64,000 nt of DNA from Elusimicrobiaceae bacterium (GTDB lineage Bacteria; Elusimicrobiota; Elusimicrobia; Elusimicrobiales; Elusimicrobiaceae): positions 1 to 64,000 of the forward strand of contig JAGCWX010000013.1 in the NCBI GenBank assembly GCA_017961585.1, read 5' to 3'. Under the pieces are notes generated by a model. The model saw nothing but the letters and a program-made list of their open reading frames with translations. It made no database searches and was not told the origin of the DNA. Of this stretch, positions 6,093 through 34,236 are shown piece after piece. Position numbers and translations under genes: made by a program. How positions within the stretch are numbered: position 1 is the first letter of the stretch; the number at the start of each line of letters is the position of its first letter.

Positions 6093-6631
6093 ATGAAAAA
6101 CGGATTCACGCTCTTAGAGCTGTTAGTAGTAGTGTTAATCATCGGTATTTTGGCGGGGTAGCGTTGCCACAATATCAAAAAGCGGTGGCCAAAAGTCGGT
6201 TTGCGGCTTTAAAGCCCATCGCCAAAGCAGTTAAAGATGCCCAAGAGATCTGCTTTGAGGGGCATGGCGAGTATGCTGAAAATATAGAAGATTTGGATAT
6301 TCAAGTTCCACCAGAAGCAAACGTAAATACGACTTTCTTTCCCAGTGGGGACTTGTTTGTTTTTATTGTTGATGAACGTCTTGAGAATAATGCATATATA
6401 GTTGTTTTGGCACACAGTCCTAACTTCGCCAATAATACGTATTGCGCCTTTGACGAGAGCAGTGCTGAGGCCCTTTGTAAAGCGGAAGGGACGTTTGATG
6501 ATGACGCCAGTGATTCTCTTGGAATTGGAATGTATAGACTATCGGGTAATTCTTCCGGGAGTCTAATCCCAATACAGCCAGTTTGTCCTACTAAATGCTG
6601 CGATAGTATGGGAAATCCTGTTATATGTTGA
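6093..6631 (+). pseudogene. Type IV pilin-like protein, frameshifted
   Basis: The ATG at 6093 opens a class III signal and the hydrophobic N-terminal helix (GFTLLELLVVVLIIGILAG), but a TAG at 6159-6161 stops it after 22 codons. The missing continuation (VALPQYQKAVAKSR and about 150 further residues ending DSMGNPVIC) is intact in the -1 frame from 6158. Adding one G to the GGGG run at 6155-6158 restores a full pilin of about 179 residues. Either the gene is a recent pseudogene, it is switched by slippage, or one base is lost in the assembly. The ribosome-binding site and terminator are intact and the downstream frame is not eroded, so the lesion is recent. Confidence 0.85.
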
Positions 6632-32795: not shown

Positions 32796-33287
32796 TTAAT
32801 ATTCTCCTTCTATGTGTGCCCAACCTTGAGATGTCAAACTTTCGCAAATGTATTCCCCCATGCTGGTGTATAAGTCCCAGCATTCTCTTGTCCAATTGCT
32901 ATTGCCTTTTGGGTGAGAAACCTTGAAAGAGTAGTTTGTGTTCACTACTTCGATGGAACAACCGTTTGAATGACAACCGGCATAATACGTAAAATTTTGT
33001 GTAACGATGGCCCCATCATTATCAATATCGCCGGGTATTTCCACATTGGCCACATTTGGATAGTAAATGTAGTCTGCTTCCGCATTGGATTTTGCATAAC
33101 CATTTTCCAGCACATACAAATCCAGTTGTTTTTCCATGGTGCTGATATTGAGTAATGCCTCACTTAGTCGGCTTTTTTCCACGGCTTTTTGGTACTGTGG
33201 CAACGCCACCGCTGCCAAAATACCGATGATAAGAACAACGACTAATAATTCTATTAGCGTGAAACCTGCTTTTATTTTTTTGTTCAT
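32796..33287 (-). CDS. Type IV pilin-like protein (intact)
   Basis: A 163-residue prepilin with a short basic leader and the class III cleavage site: MNKKIKAGF, cut before F, with Glu5 in TLIELLVVV, then ILAAVALPQYQKAVEKSR. The globular part has Cys pairs (AGCHSNGCS, REC..YICES) likely to form disulfides. The ATG at 33287 is chosen because AAGGAGA precedes it; an ATG 18 codons upstream lacks one and would spoil the leader peptide. It is transcribed from a promoter near 33510 through a long structured leader. Its intact sequence allows reconstruction of the broken homologue at 6093. Confidence 0.92.
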   Translation of the reverse strand: MNKKIKAGFTLIELLVVVLIIGILAAVALPQYQKAVEKSRLSEALLNISTMEKQLDLYVLENGYAKSNAEADYIYYPNVANVEIPGDIDNDGAIVTQNFTYYAGCHSNGCSIEVVNTNYSFKVSHPKGNSNWTRECWDLYTSMGEYICESLTSQGWAHIEGEY

Positions 33288-33500
33288 GTTTTCTCCTTTT
33301 GCCGGAGTGCAAAAAAAGCGACGAACTATCGCATAAGCCATTTCCGTAACCCGTGCAATAATCGCCGCCTGCCTACCCCTTACGGGGCAGGCATAAAAGC
33401 AGACGATTATTTGATGGACGGAAATGTGCTTGGCCGTTGGGCTTTGCGCTGTGTAGGCTTTCCCTGCACTTCCAACAAATAATCTGTAATTTTTTACTAC
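33288..33500 (-). promoter_or_regulatory. Long structured 5' leader of the pilin mRNA
   Basis: About 213 nt from the predicted start to the ATG. On the minus strand three nested stems are evident: CATTTCCGT with ACGGAAATG (9 bp), AATAATCG with CGATTATT (8 bp), and GCCTGCCCC with GGGGTAGGC (9 bp with one G-U) around a GTAA loop. Upstream is a GTGC/GCAC-closed element with two AAAGCC blocks. Some words recall the c-di-GMP-I riboswitch core (GCGCAAAGCC) but the required tetraloop hairpin is missing. It could be a novel riboswitch or a small RNA. Confidence 0.6.
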
Positions 33501-33506
33501 CCTTTT

Positions 33507-33536
33507 ATTTTAACATAATTTCCCCTGAAATTGCAG
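33507..33536 (-). promoter_or_regulatory. Promoter of the pilin leader
   Basis: On the minus strand: -35 CTGCAA (33536-33531), 18-bp spacer, extended -10 TGTTAAAAT (33515-33507). The start would be near 33500. Confidence 0.55.
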
Positions 33537-33582
33537 GGTCTCGCGCGCGTACGAAAAAATCTTCGCTAAAACCCTGTAAAAT

Positions 33583-33598
33583 TGCTACAATACTAATA
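33583..33598 (+). promoter_or_regulatory. Extended -10 promoter with predicted leaderless start, M50 protease
   Basis: TGCTACAAT (33583-33591) ends 6 nt before the ATG at 33598, with TTCGCT at 33562-33567 as a weak -35 (18-bp spacer). No Shine-Dalgarno sequence is present. Confidence 0.65.
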
Positions 33599-34236
33599 TG
33601 GGAATTATTGTTTTATTACCGGTATTGTTTTTGTCTATTATCTTGCATGAATTTGCCCACGGATATGTGGCATACCGCATGGGGGACGATACCGCTTATT
33701 ACAGCGGGCGCTTGACGCTCAACCCGATTGCGCACGTGGATATCGTAGGTACGCTAGTTGTGCCGGCGGTATGCTGGTTGTTTGGTTGGCCCCTGTTTGG
33801 GTGGGCCAAGCCCGTGCCCATTAACCCCCGGCGTTTCCCTTCGCCACGCAAAGATATGGGCAAAGTGGCTTTTGCCGGCCCGGCGATCAACCTCATTTTA
33901 GCTACTATCTGTGCAGGAATTTTGAAGATAGTGATCCTATCCCAAGGGCATTTGGGGGCACAGCTGGCGGCCACCTTGGTGTATATTTTGAAATACGGAC
34001 TGCTGATTAACGTGTTTTTGGCTATTTTTAATTTAATCCCCATTCCGCCGCTAGACGGTGGGCGCGTAGTAACGGCGTTGCTGCCGCTTGAGGCCGCTAT
34101 GAAGTATGACTTGTTTGTAGGCCGCTACGGGATGTGGATTGTGTTTGCACTTGTTTTGACCGGGGTGGTAAAATATCTTCTTTTTCCACCCGCAATTTTT
34201 ATAGTGAGCGTGCTTGCTAAAATTTTTGGTTTATAG
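33598..34236 (+). CDS. Site-2 protease family membrane metalloprotease (M50)
   Basis: A 212-residue polytopic membrane protease. The zinc motif HEFAH lies in the first helix (LHEFAHGYVAYRMGD near residue 16) and the third ligand in NLIPIPPLDGGR near 145. The short form without PDZ domain resembles the YwhC/Rv-type branch. Family members cut substrates inside the membrane, but the target here is unknown. It heads a run with trpS, scpA, scpB and glgA. Confidence 0.92.
   Translation: MGIIVLLPVLFLSIILHEFAHGYVAYRMGDDTAYYSGRLTLNPIAHVDIVGTLVVPAVCWLFGWPLFGWAKPVPINPRRFPSPRKDMGKVAFAGPAINLILATICAGILKIVILSQGHLGAQLAATLVYILKYGLLINVFLAIFNLIPIPPLDGGRVVTALLPLEAAMKYDLFVGRYGMWIVFALVLTGVVKYLLFPPAIFIVSVLAKIFGL

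Follow-up and report, generated by a model that had tools for sequence, protein, structure and literature searches.

A conserved switch-like leader RNA upstream of pilin and other genes in Elusimicrobiota, a probable transcription attenuator

Our analysis indicates that the RNA leader preceding a type IV pilin gene in the window (the whole 64,000-nucleotide stretch of Elusimicrobiaceae DNA analysed here) is probably a cis-acting transcription attenuator, a member of an orphan class restricted to the phylum Elusimicrobiota. Comparison of many copies demonstrates, at the level of sequence, the helices, the strands that they share, the U-run and the placement before genes. The architecture is thus well supported, and from it we infer that termination happens, which state is the default, and the signal with the direction in which it acts. 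What one looks for in an attenuator was found: copies lie on the same strand upstream of genes, a terminator with a U-run comes before the start codon, and a conserved helix excludes that terminator. If this reading is correct, the leader represents a regulatory RNA class absent from Rfam and from the literature searched, with a two-state design and dozens of copies in single genomes, and it would offer a testable regulatory mechanism and an orphan-ligand question for a little-studied phylum of gut and termite-associated bacteria.

The leader and its locus

The leader runs on the minus strand from about 33500 to 33288, flanked by the pilin gene downstream and by a divergent gene starting at 33598, which looks like an M50-type protease from an HEFAH motif seen by eye. 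The list of open reading frames holds a longer pilin frame beginning at 33341; we place the start at the ATG at 33287-33285 because of the position of the ribosome-binding site. The features are as follows.

32796..33287, minus strand: type IV pilin gene, ATG at 33287-33285, named pilin from its N-terminal signature alone
33293..33297, minus strand: ribosome-binding site AGGAG, read directly
33298..33310, minus strand: post-terminator tail, which, once transcription reads through, may pair with strand a and the beginning of P2 (suggestive)
33311..33317, minus strand: U-run of the terminator, 7 U, from the sequence; such runs are common in other copies found with model R1 (below)
33318..33337, minus strand: strand d, 3' half of the terminator, core CGUCGC at 33323-33318 (alignments A3 and A6)
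33339..33347, minus strand: strand f, ACGGAAAUG, within the terminator loop (A3 and A6)
33356..33368, minus strand: strand c, 3' half of the antiterminator and 5' half of the terminator (column triples)
33371..33392, minus strand: hairpin P4, between b and c, compatible with both states (A3)
33399..33417, minus strand: strand b, 3' half of P1 (33417-33405) and 5' half of the antiterminator (33411-33399) (alignments)
33418..33426, minus strand: strand e, CAUUUCCGU, pairing with f (covariation in A3 and A6)
33428..33447, minus strand: hairpin P3 with an internal loop (A3 and covariation in other genera)
33451..33469, minus strand: hairpin P2, GUGCAGGGAAAGCCUACAC (A3 and covariation in other genera)
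33472..33484, minus strand: strand a, 5' half of P1, GAUUAUUUGUUGG (relatives and A3)
33507..33515, minus strand: extended -10 promoter element TGTTAAAAT, read directly

An earlier sequence-only reading had placed a structured leader behind an extended -10 promoter. The promoter word TGTTAAAAT is visible in the sequence, and several class A relatives carry TGTTAYAAT-type words at the matching position, whereas a consensus scan gave no -35/-10 pair; transcription probably starts near 33500. The structure was borne out more fully, since the RNA of 33500-33289 folds at -90.8 kcal/mol against a mean of -56.9 (sd 4.0) for 200 dinucleotide shuffles (z -8.45), none of which was as good as the native sequence; for the opposite strand the z was -5.17. 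The three nested stems that had been described are all present, namely an outer 9-bp stem (CATTTCCGT/ACGGAAATG, 33426-33418 with 33347-33339), an 8-bp stem (AATAATCG/CGATTATT) and a 9-bp hairpin (GCCTGCCCC/GGGGTAGGC, 33392-33371, with one G-T pair). These stems make up the antiterminator conformation, which is one of two states, and that reading had missed P1, the long-range terminator, the mutually exclusive pairings and the role of the outer stem as a pseudoknot in the other state. The consensus scan also flagged a single terminator-like site, 33332-33318 followed by 7 T, where shuffles average 0.4, and the U-run ends 23 nt upstream of the pilin start codon.

Two mutually exclusive conformations

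The leader follows a four-strand plan in which a pairs with b to form P1 (33484-33472 with 33417-33405), b with c to form an antiterminator, and c with d to form a long-range intrinsic terminator (33368-33318, then 7 U). State 1 comprises P1 with P2 and P3 inside it, P4, the terminator with its U-run, and a 9-bp pseudoknot in which strand e, located between P3 and b, pairs with strand f of the terminator loop. In state 2 the b:c antiterminator is formed and the e:f helix becomes nested rather than pseudoknotted. Because strands b and c are each shared, P1 excludes the antiterminator and the antiterminator excludes the terminator.

Both states are supported by the alignment of 23 class A/B copies (A3). 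State 1 has standard pairs in 94.0% of 1315 cells and two-sided changes in 32 of 58 pairs; 0 of 500 shuffles reached any of five measures, and slid partners were only 41-49% paired. State 2 is 93.8% paired, with 28 of its 43 pairs changed on both sides. Taken by helix, P2 is paired in 98.1% of cells (5/7 pairs two-sided), P3 in 100% for its outer 2 pairs and 95.6% for its inner 4 (4/4 two-sided), P4 in 93.7% (8/9), the e:f helix in 85.5%, with 14.5% unpaired (8/9), and the core helix of the terminator in 97.8%. P1 and the antiterminator, the latter paired in 96.0% of cells, consist within a class mainly of invariant pairs or pairs with one-sided (G-U) changes, and each is two-sided in 3 of 12 pairs only; this is expected if each strand has two partners, though it makes for a weaker proof. 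The constraint can be followed directly in column 140 of strand c, which has partners in b (column 95) and in d (column 188): the three letters change together, the triple 95/140/188 reading UAU in 10, CGC in 7, UGC in 3, UGU in 2 and CGU in 1 of the 23 copies.

A second sequence class with the same plan

Some leaders, first met as weak matches to model R1 (below) and differing in sequence, form a second class, which we call class C. The idea of a single sequence class was dropped, since class C keeps the plan while its sequences differ and a further hairpin domain is added. Its strands are a = CUGUUUUUGG, b = CCAAAAACAGYCG, c = CGGCUGUUAU and d = AUAACAGCCG, followed by a U-run; P2, P3 and e:f are as in class A/B, and the additional hairpin domain lies between b and c. 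In the alignment of 22 of the 23 class C sequences (A5; L158 was omitted as close to L156 and L161, and L151 had been omitted earlier as a further type), state 1 is 95.6% paired with 32 of 56 pairs two-sided (0/500 shuffles) and state 2 is 95.1% paired with 28 of 40 two-sided. All 8 antiterminator pairs form in every copy that has both letters (100%), with two-sided change in 1 of the 8, and the same holds for 1 of the 10 pairs of P1. As class C keeps the same pairings with other sequences, all four switch strands differ jointly between the classes, and this joint change of a, b, c and d is the strongest argument that the alignments offer for a switch.

In class C the loop of the extra hairpin is self-complementary in nearly every copy and takes several different sequences (UAAUUA, UUAUAA, UCAUGA, UCUAGA, GAUC, AGCU; leaders showing such loops include L147, L149, L145 and L024). 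A palindrome of at least 4 is present in 21 of the 22 loops and one of 6 in 11 of them, against means of 8.9 and 1.5 and maxima of 15 and 7 over 2000 rounds with shuffled loops; these counts are not independent because the copies are related, and among distinct loops the figures are 13/14 and 6/14. Kissing dimers between such loops are possible. Two further loci, L151 and L061, carry a divergent leader type (GACTTGTTTTTGGCG...) that seems to be built on the same plan.

Copies from other genera

A third alignment (A6) holds 23 copies from other genera and families, none of which had served in deriving the structure, together with one A3 row, the anchor that carries the structure over, and was made by MAFFT without fitting to structure. 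The state 1 test on it omits P4 and the inner terminator pairs, leaving 43 pairs, of which 24 are two-sided, and 94.3% of cells are paired; on four measures none of 500 shuffles did as well, and for the number of pair types 12 did. State 2 is 92.9% paired with 21 of 30 two-sided and a shuffle pattern like that of state 1. Here P2 is 94.0% paired (7/7 two-sided), the inner pairs of P3 81.5%, the terminator core helix 97.2%, and P1 is two-sided in 1 of 12 pairs, a fit to P1, P2, P3, P4 and the terminator that is partly selected because the copies were found with a model holding those helices. The pseudoknot (91.2% paired, 8/9 two-sided) and the antiterminator (98.9% of cells paired, 1/8 two-sided) are the cleaner test, since both are absent from that model. 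The triple 95/140/188 reads UGC in 12, CGC in 5, UAU in 4, and CGU and UGU in 1 each of the 23. The terminator helix is conserved and partly covarying in A3, A5 and A6.

The sequence-only reading had proposed conservation and covariation in relatives as the check on its claims, and both turned out to be strong.

Distribution of the leader

A DNA search of 101 genomes, the window's own included, gave matches in 15, all of the same genus, three of them over a 27-nt promoter stretch only and one over 63 nt. Where the match covered 170 or more of the 231 query bases, as at 15 loci including the window's own, a pilin signature always follows within 370 nt, and several genomes carry two or more copies. 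The class A pattern, taken exactly from P1 through P2, occurred in 21 stretches among genomes of 84,980 species, a search that diverged copies elsewhere would escape, and all 21 are titled as Elusimicrobium, Elusimicrobiaceae, Elusimicrobiales or Endomicrobium-type bacteria. The pattern gave 0 stretches in viral contigs, and a phage origin was rejected on this result.

Diverged copies were sought with two models whose E-values are rough by construction: R1, made of P1, P2, P3, P4 and the terminator, and R2, made from class C. Within the genus R1 matched 44 of 66 genomes; across the phylum it matched 72 of 340 genomes and 15 of 100 genera. The corresponding figures for R2 are 62 of 66, 97 of 334 and 11 of 98. 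All of these are lower bounds, because the many-genome searches used stricter filters and scored few candidates. Four genomes have at least 36 class C copies each, all 36 scored R2 candidates having matched. A large family of the same order, f2, has almost no R1 or R2 matches (one weak match each, G083 and G088) despite its GGDEF proteins.

The window's genome has 1 R1 copy and 8 R2 matches at E<=1, 5 of the latter just upstream of a pilin. This makes 6 leaders before pilins (1 R1, 5 R2) as against 68 pilin-motif matches at E<=0.01, and a leader common to all pilins of the genome was rejected. Those 68 matches to the pilin N-terminal signature are spread over many contigs of a genome of 1.49 Mb (G000). 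A second pilin-like gene in the window (6102-6205, plus strand) meets a stop soon after the signature and continues in another frame. At L003, L021, L165, L171 and other loci an in-frame repeat, giving peptides such as GDPRLQASGMT, stands between the pilin start codon and the signature.

Placement before genes and the nature of the targets

The R1 searches covered 104 of 122 loci, omitting repeat fetches (L001, L032, L034-L043, L047, L059), L013-L015, which hold the promoter fragment only, and L054, which has the same score as L053. The 102 R1 copies used below are 98 of 106 matches (bits >35) and 4 of 6 from a further search; the 8 dropped were two class C copies and six matches on the opposite strand. 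In 98 of the 102, some stretch of 8 nt at the 3' end holds 6 U or more. Leaving aside four copies too near a contig end, 76 of 98 are followed within 130 nt by an ORF on their own strand that has a ribosome site and is 50 aa or longer; the controls gave 10 of 96 for the divergent side and 14 of 98 for random positions.

This placement bears on two other readings. Copies are many in single genomes, and two stand in tandem at L095, as would suit a dispersed MITE-like repeat or DNA cruciform that sits before genes by chance; yet the same-strand placement, the 3' U-run and covariation that preserves two alternative structures are what one finds in an RNA, and we consider a mere repeat extremely improbable. 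The many copies in several genomes would also suit a small RNA acting in trans, whether 6S-like or regulatory, that termination in the leader produces; this alternative persists in a weak form because a terminated transcript would be a free structured RNA of about 190 nt. The copies lie, however, on the same strand and just before genes, as expected of a cis element, no Rfam small RNA fits, and 6S RNA, the unrelated element that the sequence-only reading had held against its own proposal, has no match to RF00013 in the window or in the genome at E<=0.001, where a control was positive in 5 of 14 genomes. We judge a trans-acting role very unlikely, and the cis-acting attenuator is the reading that we carry forward.

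A downstream ORF was identified for 99 of the 102 R1 copies. Pilins are the commonest of the downstream genes; others encode glycosyltransferases, DNA methylases or envelope proteins. Of the 102, 43 have a pilin signature no more than 700 nt away; for class C the chosen ORF bears one in 12 of 23 copies. Since the samples were chosen by score, these shares are no estimates for the phylum. The proposed link between leader and pilin holds for the window's copy, which precedes a pilin; more than half of the R1 copies examined (59 of 102) have no recognisable pilin downstream. In a Pfam scan of 30 chosen non-pilin downstream proteins, 10 had no family at E<=0.01 and some others had sub-threshold matches only. 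The named targets include DNA methylases (L066, L073, L103; EcoRI-type L091 and L101), glycosyltransferases (GT8 at L090, GT61 at L099, TibC/GT9 at L095), LicD (L071), an outer-membrane barrel (L122), a PLD-like protein (L102), ribosomal protein L31 (L113) and a sigma-70-family factor (L112), and several others (e.g. L062, L080, L082) look by eye like lipoproteins or secreted proteins. A portal gene near L106 was not counted as a target, since its start lies 252 nt downstream and lacks a ribosome site.

Pilins, surface sugar transferases, envelope proteins and restriction-modification enzymes tend to be phase-variable in other bacteria. One could imagine a multi-copy, phylum-specific switch that chooses among pilins, surface glycosyltransferases and DNA methylases in answer to one common new signal, with class C leaders that would also sense one another through kissing hairpin loops and so compete, an extension that we regard as unlikely. 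The downstream genes are too varied for a ligand to be read from them.

Energies and a proposed mechanism

With the core helices enforced and the pseudoknot not counted, the two states of the window's copy are nearly equal, P1 with the terminator at -71.5 and the antiterminator at -72.6 kcal/mol, a difference of 1.1 kcal/mol. Over the A3 rows, OFF minus ON ranges from -10.8 to +5.9 and is within 5 kcal/mol in 19 of 23; in six class B rows with the core pairs enforced the OFF/ON difference lies between -4.7 and +4.4 kcal/mol. Equilibrium folding of the growing transcript, in a model that has neither pseudoknots nor kinetics, gives P1 a probability of 1.00 at 100 nt, the antiterminator 0.93 at 154 nt and the terminator at most 0.07. 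Without help this model favours read-through, the terminator being almost absent by itself, and so we infer that termination follows when a signal stabilises P1 together with the pseudoknot.

We propose the following sequence of events. From a start near 33500, strands a and b would pair first as P1, closing a 5' domain that contains P2 and P3. As c emerges it could take b from a, forming the antiterminator, and read-through would turn the pilin ON. If P1 is held, c would stay free until d emerges, the terminator would form, and the gene would be OFF. In the OFF state strand e would pair with f in the terminator loop, making of the 5' domain and the terminator one pseudoknotted fold, and a ligand or factor that stabilises P1 and the pseudoknot would thereby bring about termination.

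Conserved unpaired letters give a hint as to where such a signal may act. Two unpaired A follow P1 (22 and 23 of 23 copies in A3, 21 and 23 of 23 in A6, 22 and 22 of 22 in class C), an unpaired U stands after GGG and before strand f (23/23, 23/23 and 20/22), and an unpaired G follows strand f (23/23, 23/23 and 21/22). In state 1 these letters meet where P1, the pseudoknot and the terminator join, and they likely form the receptor site.

In the window's copy the tail after the U-run forms a duplex of -19.2 kcal/mol with strand a (z -4.79, from shuffles that keep base composition and not dinucleotides), and a z below -2 was reached by 8 of the 23 copies in class A/B and by 14 of the 22 in class C. 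Since the tail can pair with strand a, a read-through mRNA may close its own 5' end, which the duplex energies suggest.

These energies also speak to the view that the RNA does not switch and is a very stable, constitutive 5' leader by which the pilin mRNA is protected or tuned. The full read-through leader is extremely stable (z -8.45), the antiterminator dominates the growing-transcript model, and the tail could seal the 5' end in some copies, all of which would fit such a leader. It leaves unexplained, however, the U-run terminator (98/102 copies) and P1, both kept in two sequence classes, and we hold it to be unlikely.

The signal and c-di-GMP

The sequence-only reading had seen words resembling the c-di-GMP-I riboswitch core and had suggested c-di-GMP as the signal. 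A variant c-di-GMP or cGAMP riboswitch controlling pili, its ligand made by GGDEF enzymes, is attractive in that pilin genes are a known riboswitch target, GEMM riboswitches controlling them in some other bacteria, and 303 of 334 Elusimicrobiota genomes encode GGDEF proteins, the window's own at 3 places. The resemblance in the words did not translate into a match, for neither GEMM-I (RF01051) nor GEMM-II (RF01786) was found at the gathering threshold in the whole window, at E<=10 in 33200-33700, or at E<=1 in six divergent relatives. Across Rfam 15 as a whole, searched against the window at gathering, the leader at E<=10 and the six relatives at E<=1, there were tRNAs and chance matches only. 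No GGDEF protein was found at E<=10 in two genomes of one genus, G303 (90% complete) and G304 (63% complete), despite their 5 and 7 R1 copies, nor in G249 (99% complete), which has 1 weak R1 match. Incomplete genomes and other types of cyclase leave a small opening, and we consider c-di-GMP or cGAMP a distinctly unlikely signal. What survives of that proposal is its more general form, a structured RNA linked to a pilin and outside the known c-di-GMP-I class, for the leader is conserved and covarying with no GEMM match. The titles and abstract openings of the open-licence papers searched held no report of this RNA.

Comparison with known systems

GEMM-I and GEMM-II share pilin targets with the leader, and differ from it in that the leader has no covariance-model match to them and is present in genomes with no detectable GGDEF. 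T-box leaders are structured, with mutually exclusive antiterminator and terminator, and in this they are alike; the T-box Rfam model, however, had no match in the window, the leader region or the six divergent relatives, and no aminoacyl-tRNA synthetase was among the 30 downstream proteins scanned with Pfam.

The four-strand plan itself is that of trp-type attenuators, in which strands 1, 2, 3 and 4 pair as 1:2, 2:3 and 3:4. Unlike these, the leader has a pseudoknot and extra hairpins, and its targets are surface and DNA-modification genes rather than those of amino-acid biosynthesis; by eye, no conserved leader peptide was noticed in the leaders. SAM-I-type riboswitch platforms set a closing helix P1 against an antiterminator and an intrinsic terminator before the gene, and this competition is common to both; they differ in that the leader is without an Rfam match and that its terminator loop takes part in a conserved pseudoknot with the 5' domain. 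We therefore regard the conserved, switch-like leader RNA as real on the comparative evidence, and as apparently of a known kind, a transcription attenuator or orphan riboswitch, with the terminator loop drawn into its conserved fold.
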